Assembly: GCA_903813345.2 (NCBI GenBank)
Contig: CAIIXF020000008.1
Coordinates: 33,008,867-33,072,866 of the forward strand
Origin: Owenia fusiformis
Taxonomy: Eukaryota; Annelida; Polychaeta; Sabellida; Oweniidae
Direction of reading: 5' to 3'
Length of the DNA stretch: 64,000 nt
Part shown: positions 10,153 to 46,651 of the stretch, one piece after another
Numbering within the stretch: position 1 is the first letter of the stretch
Layout of the letters: every line of letters starts with the position of its first letter
The notes under the pieces: generated by a model
The model's input: the letters and a program-made list of their open reading frames with translations, nothing else
Databases searched by the model: none
Told to the model about the DNA's origin: nothing
Made by a program: the position numbers and the translations under genes

Positions 10153-13100
10153 TCAGATTTTCAGTCCATTTACATTGAATCCGGTTAAATGTCCAGTAAG
10201 CCACCACATGAAAATTGGTTGAATTCCTGCTATAAAAAGCAAGATATATGTCCGTCTTTTGTTTCCAGTGGCTAGGCTATCTGGGTCAGAATGAGGCAAG
10301 ACTTGGACCTTTAGTGTACGTATCTGAAACAAGAACATTGAGTAGATTACATTGAGTAAATTCAATGAGTGGAAAGTCTTCTAACAATTTCTTCAATATC
10401 ATTTTTAAAAAAGGTACAAAATCCAAATTTTAACGGGTCCAATCGTCTTAATAAAGACTGATAAATAATCAGAATAAAATAAGATTTCTGCATTGGAATA
10501 AATAAAGTTTGTTAAAATTATTCTTTTTTGACATTGATTACCTAGCCACTTTTATATAAGATATATTAATATTTAAAGCAACATTGTCACTTTAAATAAC
10601 TACTTACCAGAAAGAATACAATAGTGCAGCTACAGTAGATGAGGACTAGATAATATCCCCCAGAGTGGAAGAAAAGGCCAGCTATAAGACTACATATCAT
10701 TCTGAAATGTACAATACAAATGTTAAATAGGACTAGATAATATCCCCCAGAGTGGAAGAAAAGGCCAGCTATAAGACTACATATCATTCTGAAATATACA
10801 ATACAAATGTTAAATAGGACTAGATAATATCCCCCAGAGTGGAAGAACAGGCCAGCTATAAGACTACATATCATTCTGAAATATACAATACAAATGTTAA
10901 ATAGGACTAGATAGTATCCCCCAGAGTGGAAGAAAAGGCCAGCTATAAGACTACATATCATTCTGAAATATACAATACAAATGTTAAATAGGACTAGATA
11001 ATATCTCCCAGAGTGGAAGAAAAGGCCAGCTATAAGACTACATATCATTCTGAAATATACAATACAAATGTTAAATAGGACTAGATAATATCTCCCAGAG
11101 TGGAAGAAAAGGCCAGCTATAAGACTGCATATCATTCTGAAATATACAATACAAATGTTAAATAGGACTAGATAATATCTCCCAGAGTGGAAGAAAAGGC
11201 CAGCTATAAGACTACATATCATTCTGAAATATACAATACAAATGTTAAATAGGACTAGATAATATCCCCTTGAGTGGAAGAAAAGGCCAGCTATTAGACT
11301 ACATATCATTCTGAAATGTACAATACAAATGTTAAATAGGACTAGATAGTATCCCCCAGAGTGGAAGAAAAGGCCAGCTATTAGACTACATATCATTCTG
11401 AAATGTACAATATAATTTTTAATATACAGGGTGACCAAAAGTTGCAAACCCAATTTGAATTTACTTTCTCAATAATGGTAGAATCTTCTTGAATTTTCCA
11501 ATTAGACAACTCTAAAAGGATATTGCACAAGTGTTTCAGAGTGCAACACAAAGTGTAGTTGATATATTAATCCAGGGATTATCTATAACCTTGAGGCATC
11601 GTAGAAATCATTAACATACAAAATGTCACCACCTGCCATTAGTTACAGATGCTGTTACATAAGTTGTTACAGATGCTGAACACTGTCCACAAAAAGAATT
11701 ATAAATTTTTATAGTTTTATACTTTAATTTAATAATGATTTCTGATTACTATAATTTAGATCATGAGATACAGTTTGGCAAGGGTTTTTCACCCTATTTC
11801 TTCATTTTAGGATATATTTGAGGTGGAAATACATTAAGAAACTTACCCTACATATTTATATCCACAGAAGGCTAAGAGATCTAAATACTTGAGGTCTGTG
11901 GACACATTCATGATGTAGAGTGTGAATAGGATTACTAGGATTTCTATGATCAACCATACTAAGGCTGAACTGGCTTGCATCCCTAGCTCTTCAGGGGCAA
12001 ACCTGGAGACAAAAAAAGGAAAATATTAAAAGAAAAATTCACAAAATTTAAAAAGGTGTCAATCTAGCCAAATTGCAATGACATTTTAGATCGAAGCACA
12101 ATCTGAACTTTCATTTAGCATTTATCAAAGAAGTGTTTTCCCCTATTCTTCAATTATCTACAAGTCTCATTGAAATGAAAAATTTTATGTAATAATCTTT
12201 TAAAATTATAGTTAATCTAAAGTATCATAGTAGTATTCATTTTGCTTGTAATAAAGATACCAATGTAACATGTCACTTACATGCTTATGTCATGTCACAT
12301 ATGTAATGTCACACCCTGGTGTCACATGTCATACAAAACTTACTTATCTTGAGTTCCTAGGATAAATCCAGCAAGCAGTATGTATGTTACAAATGCCATC
12401 ACAGGGATATAGAGATCGGGGGCGTTGATTTCATATCTAGGCGCTACAGGTTCATCCTGGCTGTATTTTATGGACCAATCCTAAAACATTGAATAATATA
12501 TAGGTCAATGTTTTATTAAACTGTCTGTCTGAAGGGAGTTGAAATACTCAAACCTGATTGGCCAAAGGGGAGTCAATAGTTTTGTTTGTTGATGGCACAA
12601 TGCAATACTGGTAAATAGTGTAGGTTAATCACAACATTGTTACAAAGGAGCAGAGAAAAATTAATGGGGATGATGAACATTAATTAAATAAATATCAAAA
12701 TGTTTTAATAAGCTTTACTTGACATCTTATTAGACTTACTACAATCTCAGTTCACAGTGAAAGGATACAATTTTTCCAGTCTACCTCTGGCCAGGTAAAT
12801 AATTTATGATGTATTTTTTCACTAAGACCACGTAAATGACTTACAGAATGTGTAAAGGGGAATAGTAGTAATGCTATTTTCTTCCCAACATATGATGTAT
12901 CTACAGCGAAGTAATACTTTAATCTTGACTTTGACATATATTTTTCCAGCTGAAAACAAACAAACAAACAAGCGTTTATATAGAAGGCTATTTGATCAAT
13001 AAACCAGCATTCATGTAGTTTGAGTAATAATCCTCTTTTAATGTCAGCATTTGAATAGTTGAAGATTTATCTATTTTAAAGTTACAATTCTCTCATTCAG

Positions 13101-17545: not shown

Positions 17546-20500
17546 ATGGGATCTAAGGCAAATGGAGAAGAGGTAGATCTAAATATTTTTCTAGGAAATG
17601 TATCAATTATCACCCACGGCATGAGATTTTAACATCGGTAAACGAAATGATGCCATCATGTGAAAATCTTTTAGAAAATACCCAATGTGCTTTTCTTGCA
17701 TGTCCTATCTCAGGGAAACATTTTTTTATCTAGTTGTATCTCATGTCATCTCGGTGAATTCATCTCAGATAAAAGGGCCAACCTTTTTTATCCACCGTCT
17801 CTAATATCCAAGCAAATACCAATGGCGCTGTTTCCACAGTGTAATCAAATTGTTAGATTTTCTAAATAATCAGATATTATAATCAGTCATTTCCAGAAAT
17901 TGAAGCGACATCCTCAAATTTAGACGATGGCCATGATCGCATCACCCTGATAACATTGTACAAACAAAATAATTTCAAGAGGCTACCTTCACCATCTTTT
18001 ATTTGTAATAATTTGTTAATAAAATCTTTTCACTTATTTCATTTATAGGCAGAATTTAGAACTGAATCTGATTCATTTGGACCTCTTCGAGTCCCCAATG
18101 ACAAATATTATGGCGCAAATACAGCACGATCGATGAAAAACTTTGAAATAGGTGGAGAAAGTGAGAAAATGCCAGTAAGTAATAATCACCAAATAGTTAC
18201 TGAAATTGAAATGTTTTTTGATCAGACCTGTTTTGACTTTTCTGTTGGCCAATAGGCAAATTGTAACTGATTGTATGTGTCTGACAGACTTTTATAATGA
18301 CCTGACCTATTTTTGTAGTTAAATCTCATCACTTGAAAATCAATTTTTTAATCATTAAATGATTCTAAAACAGCCCAGGCTGCACAAATACAATTGATGA
18401 TGTCTTTGTTATATTGATTGTGATTAGCTTGCTGCATTCATGTTCTTTGTGTTTGGAGAAACCTTTGACTAATGAAAAAAATAGATTTGGAAATGACAAT
18501 TATGTTCAGGCAATTTTGATGGGGTGGTTGGTTTTCCAATTTTTACGCTTTCTACTCTACTGTCCAACAGATTTTAAAAGTCTACTTTGATTGACTTATT
18601 CTAATCAAGACCCTATATCAGGGTATAGTTATCAGGGCACGCCCTAAGGGCCGGTCATTACCAGGTTACTTTTTATACTGACCAGTTAATTTTTTCACAA
18701 GGTATAGGAAAACAACATTGCAACTGGTCCATGATGCCATTTTGACCAGCAGCTCTCAGATCCTTAGGGCATACACTGATACTTAAGATAAGTTTTCTGG
18801 AAAGAGGAGGGCACCCTCTGCCTCTGCCCTCCCCCCACCAAAAAAATAGGAAAATATGAAATTTGAAATTTTTAAAAGATTATTGTTTGATTGACTCAAA
18901 CAAATTCAAAATGGCCATTAATTACCAAATATTATCTTATTGTAGACCATTTGGACCTAATATATAATCTCAATACTCTTTTTTTTTTTCTTCTTTGGCT
19001 GATGCTTTCTTCTATTTTTTTCTCTGTTTTTAGGAACTTTTGCCAGCCTATCATATTAGGTCTCCTTATTTTCCTTTTACATGTGTTTAGGAATATCTTT
19101 TGTTTCAGGAATAGATGTTCGTTTTCTGTTTTTCCATCTCCGAAAAGGAATTTCTCAATCGTGGGTACATCTTCGTCAAGTTGGTTGAAAGATGTTATTA
19201 GGAAGTCTTGTACGGCCTCACAATGGTATATTCCATGTTCTAAAGTATCTATTTCACTACGGCATAGACTGCATATATCAGTGTTATAGCCGTCTATGTT
19301 CATTTGTTTTAGCTGTTTGTTATAGTATAGTATCCGGAAGAATATTTTTATTTGGAAATATTTCTCTTTTGTCCTGAGAATATTTTTTCTATTTTTGTGG
19401 ATTTTGGCCCACATCAATGGATTTTGTAGTTGCAGTTTGTTTTGCCACTTATCTTCCATCTTCTTTGGCAGTTTCACAGCATTGTTCTTTTTTAGTAAAA
19501 TCTTGTAAACTTCTTTATTGTTTGTCTTTTTTAACCATTCTGTGTTAATTGTGACATTCGGATTCTCGGTTTCTTCTTCATTTTCTCTTGGGTGTCTTAA
19601 TTTTCTTTTCCAATTTTGGGGGATGGCTGTAATTATACTGTTATATTTCAAAGTATTCCTTTGGTTCATAACAATATCATATTTATGGCCTAATTCTGCT
19701 GCTGTGAGGAATCGATTTTCGTCCTGGATGTCTTTTATAAATTCAATACCTTTTTGTATCCAAACTTCGTTTTTCATGATTTCTCCATTGATTTTTATCT
19801 GTTCATTGTGCCATAATGATTGTTGCTCTGGGTTTCTCGTATCCGGAATTGTTTGATATTTTAGACTGCACCAATTTTTGTAGACTGTCTTCAGGTACCT
19901 TAAGTCTAAAACATTTATTTTGTCACTATTTTTTGAAAGGTTCAAAGCCCATACTTCTCCCTGCGTCAGGTTCTTCAGGTAGTAGTTCCATATCTTCTTC
20001 CATTTGCCACTATATGTAGGGTCTATATATTTCTTTATCCATTTGATGCTTAGGTTTTTTATGTATGATTGTAAGTGGAGCATGTTTAGGCCACCTCTCT
20101 CTTGTTCGTTCATCATTATCTTTCTTCCAATTTTGTCTGGCTTCTCATCCCATATAAAGTTGAAAAACATGTTTTCTATTACTTTGATAAAGTCATCTGT
20201 TGGTGTGAGCACTGTACATAGATATGTCAGCTGAGATACGAGGAGTGATTTTATCATTATTATTTTTCCTAGAGGTGTGATGTTTCTACTTTTCCATGCT
20301 CTAATAAGTCCTTGAATTTTGTTTCTTTTCTCTGGGAAATTTAAACTGTTTATGTCTCTTCCATCTAAAGGAATGGTTATACCAAGGACTTTTATATCTT
20401 TATCTTGGTATTTTAGCCCTGATGCCATGCTTTCATCTCTTACTTGTTGCTGTAATAGTGCATTTTCTCTGCCTATCACGGCTTCTTCTGTTTTGTGGAG

Positions 20501-23500
20501 ATTGATGTTCAGTCCTGAGATTTCTCCAAAATTTCTGAACTTTTTAATTACTTTTTTCGCGGATGCAATATTTCTTACAAAGACTGATGTATCATCGGCG
20601 TATTGTGAGATCTTTACTTCTCCATCTGGTATTTGTATGCCTTCAATTTCTTCATCTCTTCTGATTGATTCACTCAATATTTCGGCACATAGAATAAATA
20701 AATACGGACTTAGGGGGCATCCCTGTCGTACTCCTCTGTTCAGGTTAAAGTAGCGTGATGTATACCCGTTATTTATTACTGAGCTTTTTGCATCGTTGTA
20801 TATGGTTTTGATCCATTTTCTAAAGTCTGGTCCAAAATTGAAGTAATCTAGCGTCCGATCAATAAATTTCCATTCCACTGTGTCAAAAGCTTTTTCAAAG
20901 TCGATGAAAAGCATTATGCCAGATTCATTGTTTGATTTAAGGTATTCCATACAGTCTATTATGAGTCTAATATTTTCTGATATATTTCTCCCTTTAATAA
21001 AACCTGTTTGGTCTTCGTTAATTATTTTTGTTAAATGGGCTTTCATTCTTTCTGCTAGACATCCTGTAATTATTTTGTAGTCTGTGTTTAGCAGTGATAT
21101 TGGTCGCCAATTTAATAGGCATAGAATGTCACGGTCTTTTTTAGGTAGTTGGGTTATAATGCTTCTTTTTTGTTCGGTTGATAATTCTCCTTTATCCAAT
21201 GCTTCCTTGTAGCTTTTTACCAGTATTGGCACAACTGGTTCTTGGAAACATCTATAAAATTCGCTTGTTAAGCCGTCGCTACCTGGTGACTTCCCGGTCT
21301 TCAGGGACTTGATCTGTGTTGTTATTTTTTCTAAGGTAATATAGCCCTCGCAGCTCTGTTTTTCCTCTTCTGTGAGACTGGTGATTGATTTTATAGCAGG
21401 GAAGAATGTTTCTGAGTGCTGCCTAATGTTTGGGAGCCTGCTTCTGTACAGTTCTTCATAGAACCTTGCACTTTCTTTCCTTATTTGTTCAGGATCATTA
21501 AGTTCCCTGCCATCGTCCGTATTCAGTTGTGTGATGTTCTTTTTTGCAAAATTTCTTTTTTCTAACTTCAGGAAGTAACTAGATTGTTTTTCACCTTCTT
21601 CCGCCCATCTTATTTTTGCTCGAAGTATTGCGCCCTTTGCTTTTTCATCATTCATCTCTTCTATCTCTCTTTGGAGTTGTTGTTCTTCTTCTCGTAGCTG
21701 TGTTTCATGGATGTAGTTATCTCTTAGGTTTGCCTCTATTTCTTGTAGCCGTCTTATTTTGTTGGTGATATCTAGGTGTTTTCCAGCGTTTTTTTGCTTA
21801 GAGTACCTAATGGACTCTGTTTTGATTTTGAATTTTATGAGTTCCCATAAATTTTGAGCAGTCATGTCCTTCATGTCCTCATGTGCTCTTCAACCAAACC
21901 TCTGATTAGGTTTTTTATCAAAGCTCAATACTCTTAAAAGCTCATGGTAAAACTTATCCATCCTTGCCGAAAAGTGCCAATACAGATTCAGAAAAATCTT
22001 AAATATATTATATTCATTATATGTGGAATTGTTAATGTCACAATCAAGCATGAAAGGGCTTCAAGGGCTCTCGCCAGAAAGTACAGGGTGACAAAAAAAG
22101 TGCCACCCACATAATACTACATAACCTTCTTTTTGTCTGCAGGAATTTTGACTTTATCTTTAGGTCAACTAGATGCACTTTTATGAGTGTTACAAGATGT
22201 GCTCGCTCTAGATGTGGTGCGTTCCTTTGCAAGTACACTTCTGGATTCTACTGGCAAAGTTATTGACCACATATGGCTTATAGGAACCCTCCAAATTTTC
22301 ATCTCTGGGGGTCCTTGAAGATCATGTATATGAAACACACCCTAAACATGAAAGATCTAAAGAGACAGATCAGAGCCTTTTTTGTGTTGGGGCCAACAAT
22401 AACTTTGCCCGTAAAATCCAGATGTGCCTGACATTGAGCTGAGAGCACATCTTGCAAAGCTCATAAAAGTGCATCTAGTTGAGCTATTCATCTGACACTC
22501 CTTGTGTAGTTGCTCCATGGAGTTTAATTTTATTACTGTGCAAAAGAACAAGTCAGAAATCATGCAGACAAAAAGTTATGCAACATTATATGGGTGGCAC
22601 TTTTTTGTATCACCCTATACTTGGTGGAAACATCTTCAGCATAACAGTTCAATCGTGATAAGTCACATGCGTTATATTTTATCCTTTTTGCATGTGTTAT
22701 TATTTATTATGTCAGATTTAGACTGTAGAAACAATCATGATTTGCCAATAGGTTGCGGTGGGAGCTAAATAGACTCATTTGACTGTGGTGCTGCTCCACA
22801 GTCTAAAAGCCTAGCGAGAACATTGGCTTCATTATACAACAGTTACTGTTGTCGTATCTACAGGAATTATTTACACGTTACACGTTGCATGTTACATTTT
22901 GTTGAGTGTAGCTATTGCATCCTGGCCTTTAGCCGTCGAAGATAGAGAACATAAATCAGATCCAGATTTATTTAAGATTGTATTATTAGGAAATACACAC
23001 AGTTTAACAGCAAAATTTCAAATAATTTCAAGACTTAGGGAAAACTCATGAACTACAAAAAATCTAGCAGATACACTACAGTACTTAGATAGATAACTAG
23101 ATTGGTCCTTGAGAAGCATTTTTTACATTAAAGGCAAAATTAAATCTAGTGAGCAACATTTTCAACCATCATTTCCATGTTTGAAATCCCAAAGTTCTGA
23201 CTTAATTCCAAGAAAACTTAAGATTTTTATATTAATTATCGGGGAGAGTTTACACTTTGTTTTCACACTTTGAATGTTTAATAACCATTTGATAAAATAT
23301 CACAATTGTTAAGAAAGGATACAAATGTATTTATTATACAATTGTAGTCCAGTAACCTGGTAGCCAGGGGGGCTCCGGGGTTTGCTCACTGAGCACTTTT
23401 CATATGATTTTGGGCCAAAGTTGTCAAATGTGAACAACCCCTGGAATTTTTTAAAAAGTGAATCCCCCTTGGCAAAAGCTGGCTAGTGGCTACAGACCTG

Positions 23501-26500
23501 AATTGCCTCATTTGTCTTTTATTTAATTCTTTTTAAAACAGTTATTCTCTAAGTTGAAAAATATCATCCTCATTAGTCTGATTTTGCCTTTATATGTAAA
23601 ATTACATTTTGAGATGTAGCGATTTTTGCAAAATAAAAATCAGAATGAGTGGTCTCCAATTATTATGTGTCAGAAGTCTTATGAATGTCTTGATTTTTAA
23701 AGTGTAGTTAACTGTTCTTATATATTAAAACCTGTCAGGTGGAATACCTCTGAAGGAAGAACACCTTTGTATGTGGAACACCTTTGTAAGTGGAACACAT
23801 TTGTAAGTGGAACATGTTTGTATGTGGAACACCTTTGTAAGTGGAGCACCTTTTTATGTGGAACACCTTTGTAAGTGGAACACCTTTGTATGTGGAACAC
23901 CTTTGTAAGTGGAACACTTTCTGCTACAGGTTTTATTGTATATGTATTATTTACTCTTTTGTGGGCTCTATAGAATTTCCACTGTTTCTTCTGGGTATTC
24001 AAGAGTTCCCTCATCATACCCCGTTTCGATGAGCTTTTCAAAGACAGCCGTAAACTCTCTCAACCACAGATCATTATCAGCAGCGAAGTCGAGCATATCT
24101 TGGCTGGTGTCGGCCAGAGGACAGGACTTGTAGTTGCATGTAGCACGGCCCGTATCCTTTAAAGTGAGGTCTTTGTAAAGCCCGATGTCTGAGTTGAGCA
24201 TCGTGTTTTCAGTGTCCTCTGGTTCTCCTCTCGTCTGCCTCCATTGATATTTAATAATTCGTCCTCCCTTGATTGGATGTTCCTCCTGTATCCAGCGTTT
24301 GGATGAATTGACGATATCCACATAGAATTCGTTGTCGAAACGGTCACGATGTTTCACCCAACGTCCTTTGAAGCCAGAGAATTTCTGACTTACATGTCCG
24401 AGCGTATGGGCACCCATCAAAGCCACAATTTCCCTGGGTGTGTATCCAAATGCATCTGTCATGAATGTAATGATCGCATCGCCATTCCACATTCCATCTG
24501 GAAATACCTTGCCGGGCTCTTCGGTGTATGGGGATGTCGATCCGCAATCCTTGCGGCCATAACGAAATCTTGGCTGTGGTAGGTAGTCACTAAAGCGATC
24601 TTCTCGGCTACAATGCTGTATCGCATAAATTGACGCTAGTGTCCAGAAATCAGCATGAGAGATAGGGATCTCCATGTTATTGATAATCTCCTCATAAACA
24701 GGTTCAAGTTGTGCGATGTATTGTTCTAACCCTGCATTCCCGACATTACTTTTATCGATACACCCGTCACAGCCTCCTAGACAATCGTGGAAGATTAGCC
24801 GCACGATTCCCGGTGCCAACATGGAGTGTCCAAAATTTTCGACTGCATCGGCGTCAATGACTTCCTTCATCAGAGTCATTATACTATTCACCTCTGATTG
24901 TTTTAAGCTGATACACGTCCCAAATAGACCAATCAGAATCAAGCATAGCGTGAACATCTTGGTAATTGGTTGGCTTTAACAAAAATAAAATTAAATCTTA
25001 TTACCATGGAAACAATCAATATTCATAACACATTGGGCAAGATTGAAAGAACATAAAAATCCTCCATGAATGATCATTATTTGTAATAATTTCATTATGT
25101 TCAAAATATAAAAATAAAAATTAAAAAGAATAAAAAATACATGTACATATGAACTATAAAAACCAATATAAGATCTATATTTTAGGTCTATCACATTTAA
25201 GGGAAGTTATTAAAGAAGAGCACTTGTTGGAAGTAATCTTTTTTTTAAAAAAACATGCTAATGTTTCTATTGCAATTCTAATTTTATTTTCTGAAAAAAA
25301 AATTGAAATTAAATCGGATGAAATATCGAAGTTTTAAGGTGCATAAATAATCAAATTCATTATACATGTACAAATGTACATGTAATTGAAAAGGTATTTC
25401 TACTTTTTTCGACTTTACATCACAGATAAATTTAAAAACGGAAAATTATCCTAAAATAAATGAAGTCTGAAAGCTGTTCGACCTTCTAGGAAAAAAGGCA
25501 ACACATGGGTTGATAAGAGCAAAAAATATCATGAATTCCTGACAGTGTTTTAAAACTACATTCAATTTGTCCCTTCCCCTTCTACTTTCTTTAAAATATA
25601 TTCAGAAAAGTTAAAGGTAGTGTCAGATCTAGGCTCATATCATTCCTTTGTCATTTCTATTTTCTATAAATCCCCAAAGGACATTATAGCAAGAATGTAT
25701 AATTTCTATTTAAATGTAGTTAAAACATTTATCATTTGAGAGAATTTAAACATTTTTCCATATTTTTCGTGGATCTTTTGGGAAATATTATATTTGAGAT
25801 CGTTAGGAATACATGTACATGTTAATAGAAGGTTAATTGTACATGTTGCTTGCAATTTTGTCACCCTCTATACAGGGTGGGCCAAAAAAACGCCACTTTT
25901 TTAAGACACTACAACTTTTTTATTTTCCAACCTACATACCCCAAATTCTGCAGTTATATAGTGCCAGGGGTTCTTAGTAATAATATAATGTAACAAGTCC
26001 TTCAACTAGGATTATATTTCATCTAAAAGAGGAGTTCAATTGGTCCGCCACCCTATTTGATGATATATTTTAGTTTTAGTCGCCCTGCTGATATAGTTCA
26101 GGAACATTTTGCAAATTATGCTTATTTCTCATGACATTCCACATGTTTAAGTGAGACGCTGGAGTCACTGGTGACATGTTTTATTCAAGTAAAAGTGTAC
26201 AATTCATGATCCATGGCTAGATAACAACCTCAAGTTTCATTTGGTATGCAAATTATGATTTTGTATCAAAAATTAAAAAAGTTATAGCATTTTGAAAAAA
26301 AGAGGCTTTTTTTGGCCCACCCTGTAGATCTGATTCTATCTTTAATGCTTTCATTTGAAAAAAAGTAAAAGATATGAAAATATATAAAACATATAACTCC
26401 AGATCCTTACCTCATCCTTCTGAGATCACCAATATACAAAATAAAACCTACTTGAATTTCCTTAAAATTAATAATCTTGAAATCGTGACCATCACAAGCC

Positions 26501-29500
26501 GACAAGACTGTGTCACTTAGATGTTGTATTTACCAACAAACAAAAACTAAATTGTTCTATTGATGGATTATAATTGGCTTATCCATTTTAATATTAGCAC
26601 AGCTTTGTCGTGCCTTTAAGATTAAGTTATTATGTTAAAACACTTATTAGCAGTCCAATTGGTTTTATGGAAAAAAAATGACACCTGTTTTTATAGGATT
26701 TTTAGAGAAGGAGAAATAATATTATTAATAATTTGTGTCAATTTATTTTATTTGATGAAAAAGCAACGTTGAATTAAGCATATGTTACATTGAGGTTTTA
26801 ATTTAGTTTTATTTTGTTTCATGGCATTTTTCACATTATTTAATGCAAACACACTTAGCAAATATTCAATTAAATTTTCAACAACATTATTTTGTTTCTT
26901 GCTTGATTGTGTTTGATGGAAATGTTGTCGCCATGGCTACATCACATCTTGCAGAAAACATAAATATTTTAAGAGATCTTAGATTACTTTGAAAAGGTTT
27001 CCTAAGTTTATTAGGGACGCAACCAATATCCAAGGGATTCAAAAATATCTTTATCCTTAGACAAGAAACATCACACTTAATTCTGGGAGATAAAATTTTC
27101 ACATTTTTCGGGAAAGCCCATGTATATGGGTATCAATGCCCATGTTTAATTTCTGATAGAAAATAAAGTTCTATGTTTGCCCATGGGCTTTCAAATAGAG
27201 TTGTAGTTGAAAGCCCATGGTTTGCCTTAATCCTCCAAATATATCATGTTTCAAATATATCATGTTTTTCAGCTTCCAAATATTCAATATTTTTCAGCTT
27301 CCAAATATTCAATGTTTTTCAGCTTCCAATAATTCATGCATTTGGTATTTTGAAAAAAGCAGCTGCGGAAGTAAATCAAGAATATGACCTAGATCCAAAG
27401 ATTGCGTCTGCAATATCACAAGCCGCACAGGAGGTACTAACCCACAATTCCCTATTCTACTTCATTTCAATTCTAAATCTAAATTGATTTTTTAATATTC
27501 AAGATTTTTATGGTTAAAGGGAGCAGTGTATGCTTCCTGAAAATAGAAAGAATTGTGAAAGTAACTAAGCTATAATTTTTAGTTTTGTGTGTACAATTAG
27601 TAATTTTGCTGAATACTTTGATTTACAATTAGATATTATCTAATTTTTATCATTTTCATTTGTAAAAATTGGTAAATTGTAATACACTGTTGCCTATGTT
27701 CAAGGATTCAGGCAGAGAAGTTCAAATCCTGAATTTGGAAAATATTCCATCTCGATTTATAACATTTATAAATTATTTTATGTACAAAATAATTAAATGC
27801 TTTTCATTTAGGTGACAGATGGGAGACTGAATGATCATTTCCCACTAGTAGTTTGGCAGACAGGATCGGGGACGCAGAGTAACATGAACGTGAATGAGGT
27901 GATAGCAAACAGGGCGATAGAGATGCTAGGGGGCGTCCTGGGGAGTAAGACGCCAGTTCACCCCAATGACCATGTCAATAAGAGTCAGGTAGGTCACAGG
28001 TTGATCTGTGGGTCAGAGTTCAGGTTGACATATGGATTAAAGTTCAGGTCATAGGTCAAGGTTCAGGTTGACCTCTGAGTCAGGTTGACCTATGAGTCAG
28101 GGTTTAGGTTCACTTATAGGTCAAAGTTTAGGTCATAGGTCAAGGTTCAGGTTGATTTCCAAGCCAGGTTGACCTGTGAGTCAGGGTTTAGGTTGACCTC
28201 TGGGTCAAAGATTTAGGTCATAGATCAGTTCAGGTTGACCTCTGATGCATGTTGACATTTGGGTCCTTGGCACATGTCAGGGTTCAGGTTGATCTATGGG
28301 TAAAGGTTTACACTGCTAATCTCAAACAGCACTGTTTATGAAACAGTGCTAGACAGCGCTGTAAAAACAGTACTGTACATCGTTGTTTTCAAAAACAGTA
28401 CTGTACAGCGCTGTAAAAACAGGACTGTACTATGCTGTTCAAAACAGGTGATGCTAGAATAGCATTGTACATCGTTGTACAGCGCAGTACTCGAACTGCA
28501 CTGTTCAGTACTGTTTACATCGCTGTACGGCACCTGTCTGTCAGTTCTCAATGAAATATTAAGCCTTAAATTATATATTTTATTGAAGTTCAGATATAGT
28601 GCTTGAGCTTTGTTGTTGCTTGATTGACGCAGGAATAGGAAATCATTACCTAAAATAAATGTTCATTCATTTATTACAATTAATGATTTACATCCATGTA
28701 CATGTACATTTATTTATTTATGAGAGCCACATTCTTCCGTCATTGATTACTTTATGGAAAATACAGAGGCTGCCCATTGAGTCATTTCAAGATCAGTATG
28801 CATGCCTGTAATCCATCTTCGTGCTTTAAAGCTCAAATATTAAAAAGATGTCATCATGGAATAATTTAAGGTGAATGATAGTCTAAGACCTTAAAACTGG
28901 CATAAGCTTGAAAAATAGTGTCATCATCTCAATATTTTCCACTGCTCGGTCCCCGTCAACTCATTTGAAGTTTGAGCGCCATCATTTTATTTTCTGTTAC
29001 CTATCAGTCAGTTTTGCCAATCAACACATTTTTTGTTCCTGTCATTTCAATTCTCCAATCGGATACTAACAGGGCTGTCAGTTCATTTGCCAAACAAATC
29101 ATAACATTTCTTATATTCACTAATCAGACTTATTGGTCATTTCTAGAAATTTTGAGTTGACAGTTCATATTTTGAGTTGACGGTCCCTAATTGAGTTGAC
29201 TACCCAACAGTATCCCCCATTTATTTATACATATACAACCAACATGACATGAAAACTCTGTTTTGAATTCCATTTCAGAGTTCCAATGACACATTCCCAA
29301 CTGCGATGCATATAGCAGTTGCCATGGAGATAAGGAGATGTCTGTTACCAGGACTACAGCTGCTGTTGGTTACACTTAAAGATAAAGCACAAGAATTTAA
29401 AGATATCATCAAAATTGGGCGCACTCACACACAGGTACCTGTAGGAATTCTATTTGGTGGATTATAACAGCACTGATTGTTTGGCTCATTATCATTGTTA

Positions 29501-32500
29501 TTGTGATTGTTGCCCGGATCTTCATAGGTTTTCAGTGTTGAGGATTTTCTTATTTTATTTAGGAATTTTGTAACTTTTTATGCAATATTTTTAGTTTTAT
29601 TTCACCACCAAAAATCGTGACAAATGTTTATGGTCTCAGTTTTTTGTGACGGCGGTTGGTGATCGGCGGTTGGTGGTTGGTGTCTGTAACAAATGGTGGT
29701 GACATTTCACATGTTAATGCCTTGTTGGATTTTGAATGACGTATTCTGGATCTTATTATCTTTTGTTTTAACATTTATCAAGCATTGAATTAATGGAAGA
29801 ACATTTAGGTTTAATGAAATACATGGCCGTGATTTGCCCAAGATATGTCTTTGTGTGGAGGGGACTTCTACTGAAAGTTCCCATTGAAAAGCATGATGCC
29901 TGTTTGTGTATAAACATTTAATTTTCTCAATTATATTTGTTTGTAAATTAATGACTGCTGGATTTGCTCAAAAACAGCACACATAAACAGGCTAACATGT
30001 GATCTGAAAGTGGATTTCCAGTTGCCTAACTTATAGATGGCAGTGTATGTTGTGTAAAATGTGATTAAGAATTAAAAGTACCTTTTCATAAATATGCATT
30101 GTGTGGGTTGTATTCACTCGCACACAGTAGTATCATTGCCATATATTTGAGGAGATCATGGTGCATGTATGATATGGGCATGAGCACTAATCAGGCACAG
30201 AGGCACAGCCTTTAGTGTTATACCATATATGATTTGGTATATAATATGCTGTCTCAAAACTCCATTCATAGGTAAAGGCCGATAGGAATAATTTTTAAAT
30301 AAAGATGGCATGGAAATCGATCTGTGTTTATCTGTTTCTCGGCCCAGAACCTATGGTTGAAACAGAAATCATTCAATTATGTATTTCTACCTGTACATCC
30401 ACACAGCATAGTCATCTACATGTATATACAAAATTATTTTCATGTTGTTATCTTACTTAATTGTTGTTCAACTAATATGGAATCCTATATGGCCTCACAC
30501 TTTTTTCATGTATTTAATTGAGTCCACTTAAGTATTCTCCATGTCTGACCAATGTCCATATGGAGTCTATTTAAATCTATCAGAAGCATCATACTCATGA
30601 AAAAACAGACAAAAAAATATTTATTACAACTTTGATTCTATTAAAGGGCACTCTGATGGCACAAATTACATATATATATTTATATTATTGAGGACATGCA
30701 ATGGCAGATCCCCGCCACTCCAACATACTTTGTAATTTTGGGAATATACACAAACCCTTGTGTCACCCACTCATTGTATATGTATATTGTATGTGTTTTG
30801 TGAAATAAACAAATTGAAATTGAAAAATTGAAATTTTAACAAATCTATTTTAATTTATATATCTATTTGAAAATCTTTTTATATGGTACCTGTACCTTGT
30901 CATTTCTACATCCTCTTATCAAGTGATATGTTTTGCCAAGTTATCATTTCTTTATATCCACTTAAAATCACTTTAAATTCAAATTTCCTTTAAATATAAT
31001 TGTTTTAATACGGTCATTTTGATGGAATATGTGAGTTTTTTGTAAGTTTGGATACTCTTGGTGGTATTTACTTCATTGGATTTAGTCATATTTTGGTGTG
31101 AATTTATGTAACCTATCAATGGTTGGTAATTGTTTTTTTTTGTTAGTCATCATCTTTTGGTGTGAAATATAGTTCCTTTGTAAGCATAGATACTATCGAT
31201 GATTGCTTTATTTTTTTCAGTCGTCATCTTTTGGTGTGAAATATAGTTCCTTTGTAAGCATAGATACTATCGATGATTGCTTTATTTTTTTCAGTCGTCA
31301 TCTTTTGGTGTGAAATATAGTTCCTTTGTAAGCATAGATACTATCGATGATTGCTTTATTTTTTTCAGTCGTCATCTTTTGGTGTGAAATATAGTTCCTT
31401 TGTAAGCATAGATACTATCGATGATTGCTTTATTTTTTTCAGTCGTCATCTTTTGGTGTGAAATATAATTCCTTTGTAAGCATAGATACTATTGATGGTA
31501 TTTGCTTCATTTGATTCATTGCAGGAATTCTGGGATTGTTAGATTGAAAATCAAAAGCTACTCTTCTGTTGACCCTTGTCATGATTTTCAGGATGTCAAA
31601 ATCGGGGTCTTCTCCATGTTCCTCCAGTTCAATACAAAGCGCCTGTATGAACCATGAACCCTCTCTTGAGTTCCTCCATGCAAAATAGCCTGCAAAAATA
31701 TTTTAGTTTGGATTAAAATGCCCCAAAGACAACTTTTAAATGCCCAAATGATTGCATAGAGCCTATATATATATTAAAAGACCCCTTATGAGTTCCTACA
31801 TGCAAACTGAGACTAACATAAAACTCAGATGCAAAGTAAACCTTAACAAATATTGTAATTAGGATTAAAAATTCCTAGCCTCACAATTCGTAAAAATGCG
31901 CAAAAACTGTATAGGACCTGCTTATAAATACTAATCAACACCCTCCCAGGTTTGTCCATCTGAAATTGGATATGGCACAATAATGCAACTTTTGAATAGT
32001 GGTATTTTTCCATCCTCCTAAGCAGGTATCCAGAATCCGTACCTCCTTCTTCCCCCTGCTATAACCAATTTGGAAGCGTCCGATTAAACTGAATCACGTG
32101 GTCTAATTATGCGCAATGACTTATACATGATTTCTGTCGCAGTGTTGTGACAGACAATCAGATTGCGAGTTCTTAATCTGGGAAATGCTAACTGCTTATT
32201 GCAGGGGGTAAAAAGAAAGAATATATTCTAGATTTTGAAGCCCTGTGATCGGAGGATGTATTTTTCAGTAATTGGCACTTACAGAGTACTGTTTTTAAAT
32301 TTGTTGGCTATGTTAAGCCTAATACACCACTATGATACAAAGGGCTTTATACCTGGTACTACAGAATATGCCATTAAGAAATCTGCCTCTGCTGGGATCC
32401 TGTATGTTGTGTTAGTGTTTGTTTCATCAATGTCATCACCTCCATGACCATCTGTTACTTCTATTCCCTCATCAAGCTTTGAACCTCTACATGCCTATAA

Positions 32501-35500
32501 CATCATATTTTATTTTGTAAAAATTCTGAAACAGTATTAATCCTATATTTAATTTTTATCATATATTTTATTTAACTAAAAGTCTAGTTGTAGTTGATTA
32601 TATATTAGAATGTATAAGTTGTCAAAATTTCAGCAAAATTGTTCAAAATGTCTGAAAATTGGTTTTTCCATAGTCTGAACCAGGAGTCTTATATTGCACC
32701 ATGAGACAAATCAGCTAATAAGACAAAGTAAAAAACTAACTTGTATGAAAAACAGTTTAGGTTTTCCTGCCAGACTTGCACAATTGTTCCCTTTCAGTGG
32801 CTCTGTGAGAGTGTCAATGCTGACAGTGGCATCTTTCCCATATACTTCTCCATTGTCATTCCCATGGCTTAATATTACACAAGCAAAACAGTCCGCTTGG
32901 GAGTGGTCCATACTGCCGGCTTTGTTTAAAATACAAATACAAAATTGTTGGTATGGATGAACATTTTTAATAATTTTGAAAAAATATACAATTCCCAAAT
33001 GATCATGAGAATAGAAAATAACATAATGTGCACATAGATTCTATCTGGAATTTTATATATTATGTATGAATGCTTGGGTTATTGACTCAAAGATATCATT
33101 TTCCAAATCTTATATTACCTTTTTTCATAAGACCCAACATTTCTTTAACTGTCTGATTTGTCTTGACTTCAGGTTTAAAGCCTAGTTCATGCAACTGTTG
33201 GCGTATATTGGACGCGTCAACATCAGAACCCTTTCTCTCTTGCTGTCTTGTTTCAGGATCAAAGGACTTGTTGTTTATAATGATTGCCATGCCACGTTTT
33301 GGATGTTTCATATTGTATCTGTACTTTTCGTCCTTTGGTCCTTGTAGATTTAGAGCTTCCATATTGTCTTCAAGGCCAGCCCTATTAAAATTGTATAAAG
33401 TAAGAACACCAAACAAATTGGGTTTATAATTTCAACACTTGAATTGTACCAAAATGCATTGAATCAAAATACATTGAATCAAAATACATTGAACCAAAAT
33501 ACATTGTACCAAAATGCATTGAATCAAAATACATTGTACCAAAATGCATTGAACCAAAATACATTGTACCAAAATGCATTGAATCAAAATACATTGAAGC
33601 AAAATACATTGTACAAAAATGCATTTAACCAAAATACATTGAACCAAATGCATTTTACCAAAATGCATTGAACCAAAATGCATTTTACCACAATAAGGAT
33701 GTGTTATACAGATTTTAGACAGACTTTAGCCTATTTATTTGAGTAACTATGTTAGTGTTCCATATACACGAGGGGAAAGAGTACCCGTGTATATACAACC
33801 TACCGCCGAGAAAAGACCGGAAGATGTCTGAAAATGTAGGGGGTGAGTTATAAACTTTTGTTTATATCTTGAATTTCTCAATATGAGAAACAGATAAAAC
33901 ACAGAATTGTGTGTAACTGATAAAGTTATTGTTCCAGGCACTCATGTTTGCAAAATAATGAGTACTTAGCGCAATGTTCACTATCCAATCGCTAAATTCA
34001 ACTTTTAAATATTTGAATGATGATTTACATCTTGAATAAGCAACAACCATGGCTGTCTTTACTTCATTTGATTCAAAGATACAATAGGCGTAAATGTATC
34101 TTATTTATTTCACTGCCATACGTTGCATATCATTGAAATCACCGGTGAAAGGTGAAAATGAAAGACCCAATTATGTCACGAGTACGATTATATAGGACCC
34201 GAAGCTACCACCGAGCTATTCCGACTATACCGTGAGTAGAACCCGATGAGGTAGTGAGTAAGCTTTCGAATGAGCATATACAGGGCGTCAAATAAGTCTG
34301 TTCTCCCCCTTAACTTTTTTAATTCAGAAATAACATAGGGTTGGTATATATCATCTTAAAGGAAATTTAATTTGCTGATCACACACCAAATTTCAGAATG
34401 ATTGGTTAAATTCCAAATTTTTTAGAGTATTTTTAGTGATGTCCATAATTCACTTTTTTAATAGTCTGTATGTCTCCCCGGTAGCCCGGATTGCCTCAAT
34501 TCTACGAGGATATGATCCTGTATAAATCATTCAGAACGTTTAATTTTGGCTGCTATCAACTATTTTGTGCCCCTGCTTCAAAAGCTCCCCTGAATGTAAC
34601 ACATTTTACTCTGTGACGATATTGAGAAACATTGAAATCACCCAATGTTGGCATTGTTACTGCAGTATCAACTTTTCACTTTTCATTCACTATACCTTGT
34701 AATTTTACTTGTTTTGACGTAATCAAAGGTCAACTACAACCTTACAATAAATGTTGTAGCAATTTTATTAGGAGGAGGTTATGATTGCTTTTTTGAGGGT
34801 GATCAGCATTTTTCATAAGCTTCAAAATGATATATGGAAAAGTATGATCAAATTAAAGATAAAAAAGTTAAGGGGGGAGAACAGACTTATTTGACACCCT
34901 GTAATATCATGACGATATCACGAATATTCCTTTTTATTTATCATATACTCCTGGCACCGGGATATAATATAATATGATATAATTCCCGCAGCACTATACG
35001 TCAACGTCTGTTTCCGGCAAAGTTCTTTAAAACATTGAATTCATGCTTACACTTGAATCACCATAATTTCCCATGTGTCTATGGTAAGAGTGCAACCCAA
35101 AAACATTTAATTCTGCATTGCAAGCGCCATTCTACTCAAAGAACACAACTTGAAGAATCCCAAGCTTCACAAGCTTCATATCCTCGAAACGAAAATTACC
35201 GTGATCTTTCTTTGATAATACAATACCATAGTCAAAAACATTGTAAATCCATTTTTTGCCATTTAACTCAGGCACATTAACTTTAATACTCAGTAATGGA
35301 TGGTGTACTGACTGAAGTGGACCACAAAGTCATCCATCTCGTGTGATTTATAACTACAGTGGAAGCATTTGTACCGAGGACCTGAAATACAATGTTTCGA
35401 TGTGCAGTGGTAACTGGTGATAGCCATATTTTTTTCAGTTTCATTTATTGTTCACAACAAAATGATTCACATGAATGATGCAGATTGTATGTTTATTATT

Positions 35501-44500: not shown

Positions 44501-46651
44501 TAACCAATAAGTTCAAATTGCTTTTCAAATCCATGCCCATTAATACTTGTTTTCTAATGGAAATAAAATGGGGGTCATACTGACACCTTTCTTAATTTTC
44601 TGCTGTTTCTTATAGGGGGCACAGCTGTGGGGACTGGACTCAATACGAGGATAGGATTTGCCGAGAAAATTGCGGAAAAAATCTCTGACATCACAGGTAC
44701 CGTTAAGTAAACAATACACAAGATACAGAGATATCTCCAGCTATTATAAAACATATGATATTAGGGAGGTTAAGCCACGCAAGAGAATTTTTTGTGAAAT
44801 ACTTGTAATTAGGTTCCTGAAAAAACAATTGAGATGGAGACGGTAATCTTTGAGAGTCATAATACACATTCACAGTTCATACACAAAATCTCCTCAAACG
44901 TGTGGTTTGACCCCAGTATTTTTGCAACTAGGGTAAGAATTGTCTCGGTTCATATTCTTTCTTGCAAGGATTTTTTTTTCTATCACAGTAAATGTATTTA
45001 TTATTATTTATTATGAATAATTTCAATAAAATTTTGACTGTGTCAATGAATAAATAAGAAATCACTTTGGTTTTCAGGTTTACCCTTTGTGACTGCACCT
45101 AATAAATTTGAGGCTCTAGCAGCCCACGACTCAATGGTAGAAGTCCATGGTGCTCTGAACACAATTGCTTGTAGTCTGATGAAGATAGCTAATGATATCA
45201 GATTCCTTGGGTCAGGTCCTAGGTGTGGGCTGGGGGAGTTGATGCTACCTGAGAATGAGCCAGGAAGCAGTATTATGCCTGGTGAGTATTTGTATTATGC
45301 CTGGTGAGCATTTGTATTATGCCTGGTGAGTATTTGTATTATGCTTGGTGAGTATTTGTATTATGCTGGGTGAGTAGTTGTATTATGCCTGGTGAGTAGT
45401 TGTTTTATGCCTGGTGAGTACATGTACTTGTTTTATGCTTGGTGAATTTTTGTATATGCCTGGTGAATGAGTAGTTGTATTATGTCTGGTAAGTAGTCGT
45501 ATTATGCCTGGTGAGTAGTTGTTTTATGCCTGGTGAGTATTTGTATTATGCTTGGTGAGTATTTGTATTATGCCTGGTGAGTATTTGTATTATGCCTGGT
45601 GAGTATTTGTATTATGTTTGGTGAGTATTTGTATTATGCCTGGTGAGTAGTTGTATTATGCCTGGTGAGTATTTGTATTATGCTTGGTGAGTATTTGTAT
45701 TATGCCTGGTGAGTATTTGTATTATGCTTGGTGAGTATTTGTATTATGCCTGGTGCGTATTTGTATTATGCTTGGTGAGTATTTGTATTATGCCTGGTGA
45801 GTAGTTGTATTATGCCTGGTGAGTATTTGTATTATGCCTGGTGAGTAGTTGTATTATGCCTGGTGCTATCTTTGAAACAAAGCTATTAGATATTACAGGA
45901 TACCTGATTATGTTCTTGCGTGTACATTGTACATTATGTATTGTAAGCAGTAGCACGATTAACAAATTAACGAAATGCTATCAGAATTACATACTATTAC
46001 ATACAGTACATGCATTCATTAATGGCACAGATAATATTCCCTCAATGTTTCAACTTTCTCAGTCAACCATTGAAAATTCAATACTATTCAAAAATATGTT
46101 TATAAGATCATAACTTGCACGTGGATTAAAATTTAATTAATATGTTTGCGTGTCTTTAAAATGATGATTTTATGTTGATTGTACAGAATGATAAATGTTG
46201 ATCAAATGTATATAATATTCCTATAGGTAAAATCAACCCAACCCAATGTGAGGCCATCACCATGGTAGCAGCCCAAGTAATGGGAAACCACGTAGCTGTC
46301 ACAGTAGGTGGTAGCAACGGCCATTTTGAATTAAATGTCTTCAAACCAATGATGGTTCGTAATGTACTCCAATCAATTCGTCTCATCGGAGATGCGAGTG
46401 TATCATTCGCTAATAATTGCGTAGTTGAAATACAGCCAAATAAGGACAGGATTGAGCAACTATTGAACGATTCATTGATGTTAGTGACTGCGTTAAACCC
46501 GCATATAGGATACGATAATGCAGGAAAGATTGCTAAACACGCCCACAAGAGTGGATTGACATTGAAGCAGGCAGCTGTTGAGCTGGGCTTACTCACTGAA
46601 CAACAGTTCAATGATTGGGTTAAACCTGAAAACATGCTTGGGCCAAATTAA
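17546..46651 (+). CDS. FH: Fumarate hydratase (fumarase, class II), 9 exons
   Basis: Interconverts fumarate and malate in the TCA cycle (mitochondrial form) or in cytosolic/nuclear fumarate metabolism. Coding exons: 17546-17572 (tentative), 18049-18174, 27323-27433, 27812-27988, 29279-29434, 42812-42923, 44616-44696, 45078-45281, 46227-46651. Every junction is GT-AG and phase is kept, giving about 472 aa. Visible hallmarks are [15 protein letters not shown], the [21 protein letters not shown] active-site region split between exons 4 and 5, [19 protein letters not shown], and the superfamily signature GSSIMPGKINP across the exon 8/9 junction; it ends in MLGPN. Exon boundaries match those I recall for vertebrate FH. 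Exon 1 (MGSKANGEE) has a good Kozak context but an in-frame TAA just upstream at 17537, so no mitochondrial presequence is visible; an unseen alternative first exon is possible. Introns 2 and 5 contain other genes on the opposite strand. Confidence 0.95.
18932..21874 (-). pseudogene. LINE ORF2 fragment: reverse transcriptase plus zinc knuckle
   Basis: A 980-codon open frame. The N-terminal part is charged and coiled-coil-like (linker between endonuclease and RT). RT landmarks follow in order: [54 protein letters not shown], and the catalytic YADDT. Near the C terminus is a CX2C-X8-HX4C zinc knuckle ([18 protein letters not shown]), typical of L1 and Tx1 ORF2. The endonuclease domain is missing, so it cannot be autonomous. 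The frame has no stop of its own before the poly(A); its last ~17 codons ([11 protein letters not shown]...) are read from the tract, the target duplication and intron sequence. Confidence 0.92.
18979..21923 (-). mobile_element. 5'-truncated non-LTR retrotransposon (L1/Tx1-type LINE) in FH intron 2
   Basis: The element lies antisense to FH and is flanked by the 12-bp direct repeat CTCAATACTCTT at 18969-18980 and 21924-21935, a perfect target-site duplication. The 3' end is an 11-base poly(A), seen as T on the plus strand at 18979-18989. The 5' end lacks the apurinic endonuclease domain, the usual result of incomplete target-primed reverse transcription. About 2.9 kb carries an uninterrupted reading frame, so the insertion looks young. 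Confidence 0.93.
22082..22619. mobile_element. Mariner-type non-autonomous element, TIR TACAGGGTGACAAAAAAAG (FH intron 2)
   Basis: TACAGGGTGACAAAAAAAGTGCCACCC at the left mirrors GGGTGGCACTTTTTTGTATCACCCTATA at the right. No transposase frame. The TACAGGGTG end with TA at the boundary suggests IS630-Tc1-mariner mobilisation. Confidence 0.8.
23351..23502. mobile_element. GTAGCCAGG-family MITE, decayed copy (FH intron 2)
   Basis: Shares CATATGATTTTGGGCCAAAGTT and GTGAACAACCCCTGGAATTT with the copies at 6325 and 38554; termini are worn. Confidence 0.7.
23745..23925. repeat. 16-bp GTGGAACACCTTTGTA minisatellite after the peroxidase gene
   Basis: About 11 units of GTGGAACACCTTTGTAA, beginning about 40 bases downstream of the peroxidase stop. 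Related to the GAACACCT repeats at 1741-1905, 2025-2165 and 49180-49510. Confidence 0.9.
23932..23937 (-). terminator. Poly(A) signal AATAAA of the peroxidase gene
   Basis: AATAAA on the minus strand 31 bases after the peroxidase stop codon. It lies between the stop and the GGAACACC tandem array at 23745-23925. Supports this being a complete transcription unit rather than an ORF by chance. Confidence 0.55.
23968..24957 (-). CDS. Secreted haem peroxidase of the plant/fungal (non-animal) superfamily, single exon
   Basis: An uninterrupted 329-codon frame starting at a true ATG, with a hydrophobic N terminus (residues 1-17, [17 protein letters not shown]) that looks like a signal peptide. The distal haem pocket is R53, F56 and H57 in VRLIFHDC; the proximal ligand is H184 in [12 protein letters not shown]200 lies 16 residues after the proximal His, the spacing of the class I (ascorbate/cytochrome c peroxidase) proximal Trp, within SGFKGRW; D257 in NSDIGL is the likely His-hydrogen-bonding Asp. 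The distal Phe and the HDC...GCDG cysteine/calcium-type region are instead like classes II and III. Expected activity is H2O2-dependent oxidation of small donors outside the cell or in the secretory path; the substrate is unknown. Related genes called putative ascorbate peroxidase are known to me from several marine invertebrates. It lies within FH intron 2 on the opposite strand. No introns were seen. Confidence 0.88.
   Translation of the reverse strand: MFTLCLILIGLFGTCISLKQSEVNSIMTLMKEVIDADAVENFGHSMLAPGIVRLIFHDCLGGCDGCIDKSNVGNAGLEQYIAQLEPVYEEIINNMEIPISHADFWTLASIYAIQHCSREDRFSDYLPQPRFRYGRKDCGSTSPYTEEPGKVFPDGMWNGDAIITFMTDAFGYTPREIVALMGAHTLGHVSQKFSGFKGRWVKHRDRFDNEFYVDIVNSSKRWIQEEHPIKGGRIIKYQWRQTRGEPEDTENTMLNSDIGLYKDLTLKDTGRATCNYKSCPLADTSQDMLDFAADNDLWLREFTAVFEKLIETGYDEGTLEYPEETVEIL
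25871..26326. mobile_element. Mariner-type non-autonomous element, TIR TACAGGGTGGGCCAAAAAAA (FH intron 2)
   Basis: Left TACAGGGTGGGCCAAAAAAA, right TTTTTTTGGCCCACCCTGTA, a perfect 20-bp pair; 456 bp, no coding capacity. The same terminus occurs at 41094-42640. Confidence 0.88.
27244..27330 (+). repeat. Triplicated 25-bp FH exon 3 acceptor
   Basis: TTTTTCAGCTTCCAA occurs with AG at 27271-27272, 27296-27297 and 27321-27322. Only the third AG keeps the FH frame ([10 protein letters not shown]); the others would add 25 or 50 bases. Confidence 0.9.
27984..28312 (+). repeat. Imperfect tandem repeat starting at the FH exon 4 donor
   Basis: The exon 4 end plus donor reads GAGTCAGGTAGGTCACAGG, and the following 320 bases are built of related blocks such as GAGTCAGGTTGACCT, GGTCATAGGTCAAGG and GTTCAGGTTGA. 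Divergence is much higher than in the exon 8 array. Confidence 0.75.
28325..28535. repeat. Palindrome-rich ACAGTACTGTACAGCGCTGT repeat
   Basis: Repeated blocks of AACAGTACTGTACAGCGCTGT type, each nearly self-complementary, immediately downstream of the exon 4 donor array in FH intron 4. Confidence 0.8.
31143..31496 (-). repeat. Tandem 74-bp copies of the caspase C-terminal coding sequence, stop and poly(A) signal
   Basis: CAGTCGTCATCTTTTGG (reverse complement encodes PKDDD-stop) recurs at 31218, 31292, 31366 and 31440 on plus coordinates, with a slightly diverged copy at about 31144 and a more diverged one at about 31070. The copy at 31440 is the real gene end; the others lie downstream of it. 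Each intact unit carries [18 protein letters not shown] and AATAAA. Confidence 0.92.
31429..31434 (-). terminator. Poly(A) signal AATAAA of the caspase gene
   Basis: AATAAA begins five bases after the caspase TGA, an extremely short distance. The same stop-plus-AATAAA combination is repeated in most of the 74-bp downstream copies, so several alternative signals are available. Confidence 0.5.
31439..38977 (-). CDS. Executioner-type caspase (caspase-3/7-like), 5 exons, nested in FH intron 5
   Basis: Cysteine-aspartate protease of apoptosis. Coding exons in gene order: 38907-38977, 33119-33381, 32741-32919, 32353-32494, 31439-31689; all GT-AG, phase kept, total 301 aa. The large subunit starts near [16 protein letters not shown]. 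The catalytic His is H130 in [10 protein letters not shown]. The catalytic Cys is C173 in QACRG, split exactly at an exon boundary (Q ends exon 3, ACRG starts exon 4). An acidic inter-subunit linker (DDIDE) follows, then small-subunit motifs [25 protein letters not shown] and the C-terminal [15 protein letters not shown]. The prodomain is short (about 45 residues) with no CARD or DED, as expected for an executioner. The whole gene lies inside FH intron 5 on the opposite strand. AATAAA sits five bases after the stop. Downstream are tandem copies of the terminal coding segment. The first exon (MADLVDGTP) is the least certain. Confidence 0.9.
32011..32259. mobile_element. CATCCTC inverted-repeat element, copy 2 (caspase intron 4)
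   Basis: Same element as 9785-10009 in opposite orientation (shares CCCCCTGCTATAACCA, CCGATTAAACTGAATCA, GCGAGTTCTTAATC). Confidence 0.8.
33437..33690. repeat. 15-bp minisatellite beside caspase exon 2
   Basis: About 17 units of ACCAAAATGCATTGA / ATCAAAATACATTGA. It ends about 55 bases from the caspase exon 2 acceptor (33382), within intron 1. The multiple of 15 keeps several frames open on both strands, giving spurious reading frames. Confidence 0.93.
34279..34903. mobile_element. Mariner-type non-autonomous element nested in a larger DNA element
   Basis: Ends TACAGGGCGTCAAATAAGTC and GACTTATTTGACACCCTGTA continue as inverted repeats for about 40 bp. It lies inside the 2.28-kb element 33767-36047. 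Confidence 0.88.
35041..35200 (+). pseudogene. Possible LINE zinc-knuckle remnant
   Basis: An 81-codon frame includes [17 protein letters not shown], which has the C...HX4C pattern seen near the C terminus of LINE ORF2 proteins, followed by Gln/Arg-rich sequence. Too short for a firm call. Confidence 0.25.
36080..36266. mobile_element. Palindromic MITE, ATTCGCGAATGCA family (caspase intron 1)
   Basis: Long imperfect palindrome: TGTATTCGCGAATGCAGCTA...GGCTACCGGATTAACCTAC pairs with GTAGGTTAATCCAGTAGCC...GTTGCATTTGTGAATACA. Confidence 0.8.
38338..38414. mobile_element. 77-bp MITE, TIR ATGCCTTGGTCACATTTG
   Basis: TGCCTTGGTCACATTTGATC and GAGCAAATGTGACCACGGCA are inverted repeats. A related, less perfect pair (ATGCCTGGGTCACATTT / CAATTGTGACTCAGGTAT) bounds 37627-37982. 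Confidence 0.75.
38554..38757. mobile_element. GTAGCCAGG-family MITE (caspase 5' flank)
   Basis: Ends AGGCCCATAGCCAGG and GGCTACGGGCCT, interior AAATCATGCAGTTTTTCACC as in copy 1. It lies 150 bases downstream of caspase exon 1 in intron 1. Confidence 0.85.
41094..42640. mobile_element. 1.55-kb foldback element with TACAGGGTGGGCCAAAAAAA ends (FH intron 5)
   Basis: The two ends share the 25871 TIR, then the inverted identity continues for several hundred bases: TCACCCCCGGACCCA at 41490 pairs with TGGGTCCGGGGGTGGG at 42225, and CAACTGTTCTAAATGCCCC at 41647 pairs with GGGGGCATCTAGAACAGTTG at 42060. Only about 400 bp in the centre is not obviously paired. Confidence 0.88.
45271..45866 (+). repeat. 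About 27 tandem 22-bp copies of the FH exon 8 donor
   Basis: The unit TATTATGCCTGGTGAGTATT plus TG begins inside exon 8 (codons for I-M-P-G) and repeats through the first 585 bases of intron 8. Most units keep GGTGAGT, a consensus 5' splice site. Variants include GCTTGG, GTGAGTAG and one unit with GGTGCG. The last unit ends at about 45866. Confidence 0.96.

Follow-up and report, generated by a model that had tools for sequence, protein, structure and literature searches.

Tandem arrays spanning exon boundaries in the genome of Owenia fusiformis

Genes and arrays in the window

The window, meaning the whole stretch of 64,000 nucleotides that was analysed (G000:C8:33008867-33072866), lies within a 498-Mb assembly, about 477 Mb of which is held by 12 contigs of 32–62 Mb each (our own sum). 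Gene models were obtained by tblastn with human proteins and from Pfam, and arrays in the window were called with Tandem Repeats Finder (TRF). FH occupies 18055-46651 on the forward strand; eight of its exons were identified, and they keep the numbers 2 to 9 of the preliminary description. YIF1, with seven coding exons found, is on the minus strand. The third gene, a caspase, had been described as adjacent to these two, which is not simply so, as tblastn places it on the minus strand, nested antisense within FH intron 5. A haem peroxidase is nested in FH intron 2, also on the minus strand (23968-24975; PF00141, E 4e-22), and its single open frame begins in a signal-like stretch; to our knowledge, this superfamily is unusual in animals. 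The same intron holds a retroelement reverse transcriptase (RVT_1) with an unbroken frame of 985 residues (18932-21889, minus strand), and a reading of the ORFs indicates a divergent histone H2B/H2A gene pair at 60665-61769.

The YIF1 array (10642-11412, minus strand; 87 bp × 8.9, 97% matches by TRF) repeats a unit consisting of a TTTCAG acceptor, the first 60 exon bases and about 27 bases that resemble the intron end. The innermost array copy forms the 5' part of the authentic exon (10599-10701, minus strand, first exon base 10701), and this copy alone continues into the rest of the exon. The preceding exon ends GYKYVG, and the array exon resumes the human order there (tblastn); it had been counted as exon 9 but is the sixth of the seven coding exons found, the next-to-last. 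A search of the assembly with this array, within the limits of the tool used, matched only the array itself. Its eight extra acceptors are in frame (six of eight among the copies listed), the reading frame is open across the whole array, each step of which would add 29 hydrophobic residues, and inter-copy changes fall on codon positions 1:2:3 in the proportion 2:0:5. By its coordinates, the start of the last YIF1 exon falls in a weak 14-bp array (10335-10370).

Two arrays span splice sites of FH, both on the forward strand. At the acceptor of exon 3 (27323-27433; first exon base 27323, end set by eye) the array covers 27236-27336 and is made up of 3.4 copies of 25 bp (27252-27336), preceded by a 16-bp pair (27236-27267). 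The sequence TTTTTCAGCTTC recurs at 25-bp steps, and the exon is joined by the last copy only. The donor of exon 8 (45077-45281; last exon base 45281, start set by eye) belongs to an array of 22 bp × 26.7 (45270-45865) with a unit of 12 exon bases plus the donor. Here GTATTATGCCTG, followed across the boundary by GTGAGT, occurs in about 27 copies with small changes (both substitutions and small indels), the motif GGTGAG is found 22 times, and only the first copy is joined to the exon. Steps of 25 and 22 bp break the frame at both exons. RNA folding at the start of the exon 8 array gave no signal (z −1.08).

The caspase array (31129-31497, minus strand; 74 bp × 5.0) lies at the gene end. Codons for the 17 C-terminal residues, the stop and AATAAA are present in five copies that extend outward from the authentic end of the terminal coding exon (31439-31690, minus strand; stop at 31441-31439, start taken from the tblastn match end). 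The motif GACGACTGA occurs in four of the five copies, and AATAAA was found in four.

The preliminary description had claimed exon-edge arrays for YIF1, for FH exons 3, 4 and 8 and for the caspase end, and TRF together with the gene models bears out all of these except FH exon 4. There, an 84-bp array (27997-28256, forward strand) starts 9 bp past the last exon base (27988), and the likeness of 7–8 bases to the exon end, seen by eye, is too short to support a spanning array. Two further minisatellites had been placed close to an exon or a stop codon. They are indeed near: one of 15/30 bp (33443-33695) lies upstream of a caspase acceptor, at a distance of about 60 bp, and one of 17 bp (23759-23917) follows the peroxidase stop after about 50 bp (neither is assigned to a strand), but no boundary lies inside either. 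A 16–17 bp core (GTGTTC...) is seemingly common to unlinked arrays in the window (2032-2083, 23759-23917, 49291-49505) and at four loci of the genome sample described below (L076, L009, L116 and L125), in which an 11-base form of it occurs; it perhaps marks a dispersed minisatellite family.

In all four spanning arrays of the window the authentic copy sits at the coding end, and the units (22, 25, 74 and 87 bp) show no mutual match at E 0.01, as their reported difference in sequence had implied. The 32 splice sites of the three genes were placed by hand from tblastn ends and consensus. Four of them lie inside TRF arrays (at the YIF1 array, FH exon 3, FH exon 8 and, in the weak array, the start of the last YIF1 exon) against 2.5 expected by circular shift (P=0.30), so that a local clustering peculiar to the window is unsupported.

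Spanning arrays in a genome sample

Boundaries elsewhere in the genome were sampled in two sets. The first was built by matching kinesin, myosin and dynein domains one exon at a time and comprised 296 exon matches in 165 stretches (240,219 letters). Before counting, 28 repeat matches were dropped: 16 of 144 for kinesin, all from the interior of a single array (C2:23266359-23269174), and 12 of 92 for myosin, which belong to a repeated exon (C9:37986009-37994334). The second set comprised kinases and helicases (46 exon matches, 20 stretches, 79 boundaries), picked by eye from 144 and 52 listed matches as genes with matches close together, and it is therefore biased against arrays. It leaves out C10:18194977-18195528, a match with many stops inside one of the stretches, as well as at least one gene whose matches are close together (C9:20349300). 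Splice sites were called by consensus, by an open frame and by how far they lay from the end of the match, and phase agreed at 111 of 119 testable junctions, where chance would give one in three. One called boundary (L022) is a decoy copy, included in totals of 607 and removed from those of 606; L166 and L167 enter no boundary count. Two detectors were applied. TRF required the boundary to lie inside an array with a period of at least 10, and the other looked for a 40-base self-match within 420 bp, with reversed sequence as control.

By TRF, 19 of the 528 first-set boundaries and 1 of the 79 second-set boundaries lie inside arrays; of these, 18 are firm once the kinesin C2 decoy and the weak second-set case (one exon base, two copies) are subtracted. 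Self-match found 20 of 607 (19 of 606 without the decoy) against a background of 0 of 607 in reversed sequence. The two methods agree on 18 boundaries, with L056 added by self-match alone; the second set gave none by self-match and the one weak case by TRF, against 2.3 by shift. The splice sites spanned by arrays number three in the window (at YIF1, FH exon 3 and FH exon 8) and, where the two methods concur, 18 outside it, and 16 of 99 gene clusters hold at least one (TRF, weak case included). At all 19 authentic boundaries found by self-match the copy is located outward. The same anatomy at 18–19 of 606 sampled boundaries elsewhere supports two earlier suggestions, that the phenomenon is genome-wide and that such arrays are tolerated.

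The extreme case is a kinesin gene in which 18 copies of one exon part follow each other at 159-bp steps. In the copies read, from both ends of the array, CCATAG precedes each exon part and the last copy alone enters the exon. A dynein exon (L160, C12:24488538-24490872) has, by eye, its acceptor and about 130 exon bases in two copies roughly 176 bp apart; it was missed by both scans and left uncounted, so the counts are slightly low. A shared repeat family was considered as a cause and rejected, as comparison of the spanning units (setting aside L021 and L022, which are opposite ends of a single kinesin array) gave only two cross-matches at E 0.01, of 14–24 bases (L064-L097 and L096-L066).

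Other repeated stretches were also seen among the matches. A GSK3-like kinase, identified by eye, has one whole exon in two diverged copies about 50 bp apart (L167, positions 420-900; C10:2256400-2257700), and the repeated myosin region on C9 contains 12 matches to one N-terminal motor stretch; both are candidates for mutually exclusive exons. A dynein region has three matches to one domain stretch (C9:7082562, 7083728 and 7087077).

Among the 87 extra copies that could be walked within the fetched stretches (in FH exon 8 the walk stopped early, after 7 of about 26), 82 keep the AG or GT and 54 equal or exceed the score of the authentic site, so that site strength alone cannot mark the authentic one. 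The TRF period is divisible by three in 8 of 21 arrays, near the chance value of one in three, and in-frame selection on the arrays was rejected on this count; the other 13 periods break the frame, and several arrays contain stops. As inter-copy changes are moreover spread over codon positions 1:2:3 as 8:10:15 overall, most copies do not look translated. Clean arrays, whether spanning or not, show a weak tendency towards whole unit numbers (10 of 20 within 3 bp, about 4 expected).

Exon boundaries, introns and the origin of the arrays

The arrays had originally been described as seeded at exon boundaries, but the sample does not support this. By TRF, 20 of 607 boundaries lie inside arrays against 32.3 by circular shift (P of 20 or fewer = 0.0065), and the peak of tandem-repeat coverage that seeding predicts is absent (3.6% at boundaries vs 5–8% in introns, 11–400 bp in, and 2.4% in exons). 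By self-match, the duplication rate falls smoothly from 4.2% in introns 40–200 bp away, through 3.1% at the boundary, to 1.4% in exons 60–80 bp inside (bootstrap medians), as expected from random placement combined with selection against broken exons. The boundary/intron ratio, which rests on one sample of conserved genes, is 0.75 (95% 0.52–0.98, bootstrap by gene). Introns are thus duplicated as often as boundaries or more often.

The explanation that we favour, and hold to be probable, is that these are boundary-spanning minisatellites of the kind called “mirages” in lancelets, ordinary repeats tolerated by splicing that require no boundary-directed process. In this genome, local tandem duplications are often found around the sampled exons, and boundaries are duplicated almost as frequently as intron sequence; a unit carries a splice site (or stop) together with exon bases because some duplicated segments straddle an exon edge. 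Unequal exchange or slippage would then amplify the array. The authentic copy occupies the inner end of the array, which extends outward into non-coding DNA, an outward growth that is partly a necessity, as inward copies would break the exon. In exon definition, splice sites are paired across the exon. If the nearest sites are paired in this manner, the innermost site would be used, and the outer, similarly strong copies would be removed with the intron or would lie beyond the poly(A) site. From this established knowledge we infer that the arrays persist because exon definition selects the innermost site.

A rival view, which we consider unlikely, is that a mutational process, such as breakage linked to R-loops or to splicing, favours exon edges, above all 3' splice sites, and seeds the duplications there. 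When the sampled loci of this species were scanned against shifted positions, the enrichment of boundaries that had been anticipated was not found, but the density of array ends proved 1.6-fold higher at distances of up to 60 bp from a boundary (95% 1.02–2.54), by part 1.8-fold in the near intron (95% 1.00–2.94) and 1.4-fold on the exon side (95% 0.71–2.53). Furthermore, both 3' and 5' boundaries are affected but unequally, acceptors at 14 of 299 and donors at 5 of 307 (duplication ratio 2.9, 95% 1.3–11.6). Both observations speak for an exon-edge process, whereas the deficit of boundaries inside arrays speaks against it, as does duplication at least as common 40–300 bp inside introns. The asymmetry is also present in the introns beside the sampled exons (L001-L165 and L168-L187), with 5.6% on the acceptor side vs 2.8% on the donor side (95% of the ratio 1.08–3.93). 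This acceptor-side excess extends 300 bp into the intron, the limit of the scan, and is therefore not centred on the splice site. We read the array-end density and the acceptor excess as a regional intron bias rather than splice-site seeding, and a bias toward 3' intron ends is possible.

A bolder proposal can be made, to which we give little credence: this lineage would duplicate preferentially toward 3' intron ends by a transcription- or splicing-linked process, affecting acceptors about three times as often as donors. By extrapolation, the genome would then contain thousands of intact decoy acceptors, a few of which, such as those of YIF1, may be used and so vary the protein between individuals.

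It is quite improbable that some arrays are functional, with outer copies serving as alternative splice sites and producing proteins with variable repeat number. The YIF1 array, in frame and open throughout, would suit such a role, as would three sampled loci whose outer copies are also in frame and open (3 of 3 in L062, 6 of 6 in L089 and the first 5 of 6 listed in L064). However, chance alone would leave in-frame units open in some arrays, 13 of the 21 have the frame-breaking periods described above and several contain stops, and the changes between copies are not clearly synonymous, either overall or in YIF1. That the arrays are assembly artefacts is hardly credible, as copies differ by substitutions, with small indels in addition in FH exon 8, and arrays built in the same way from different units are found at many loci.

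Tolerated minisatellites remain our preferred explanation, and the pattern, though real and striking, is nothing unusual for this genome within the loci sampled. Each array amounts to a natural experiment, in which several splice sites of nearly identical sequence and similar strength stand at known distances. Frame-breaking arrays are common, and in these a single choice leaves the protein intact. By extrapolation, gene annotation and short-read splice calls may err at many places in the genome.

Relation to known systems

Mirages have been reported in lancelets, and the Owenia host is not a cephalochordate. Indirect evidence from the assembly agrees with this: three exon matches exceed the 27-bit cut-off for the erythrocruorin linker domain Eryth_link_C (PF16915; 28.4–38.1 bits), which is annelid-typical, and the large contigs number 12, as against lancelet chromosome numbers of 17–20. 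A search of the assembly with mitochondrial COX1 gave no match. We found no annelid case of boundary-spanning arrays in titles and the beginnings of abstracts, a weak absence, as subscription literature was thinly covered. New are the annelid host, the frequency and an estimate of a near-neutral rate, while the kind is already known from lancelets. A lancelet curiosity is thereby carried into a probable protostome, and with a number, as about 3% of the sampled splice sites are self-copied in tandem.

In amphioxus, the original report describes mirages as boundary-spanning minisatellites in the Adh3 and globin genes, with units of 10–160 bp at acceptors or donors and the AG or GT kept in many, not all, copies (PMC3087553). 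PGBD5 and troponin C were added as mirage genes in another paper (PMC3902484). The Owenia arrays resemble these in that the unit spans the exon-intron boundary, at acceptors or donors alike (PMC3087553, PMC3902484). Splicing of mirage genes is seemingly undisturbed by RT-PCR, haplotypes vary in copy number and Adh3 shows somatic instability, according to the original report; splicing and length polymorphism were thus observed in amphioxus, whereas the Owenia arrays are known from the sequence of one assembly (PMC3087553). In Owenia, the frequency was measured over 606 boundaries. The earlier statement that no process with this pattern had been described holds for the generating mechanism, which the amphioxus report calls unclear (PMC3087553), and fails for the pattern itself, which was described in the amphioxus mirages and in a human VNTR.

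The latter is a 31-bp repeat in CBS, c.1444_1467+7(16_21), which by its name consists of 24 exon and 7 intron bases, so that the donor is repeated 16–21 times, as in FH exon 8 (PMC2630376). CBS is a single human locus, whereas the arrays in Owenia occur at many loci. Extra splice sites also arise through duplication when introns are gained by tandem genomic duplication (PMC3443670). In that process an exonic segment containing AGGT is duplicated and gives rise to a new intron, whereas in Owenia the intron already exists and its edge is multiplied.
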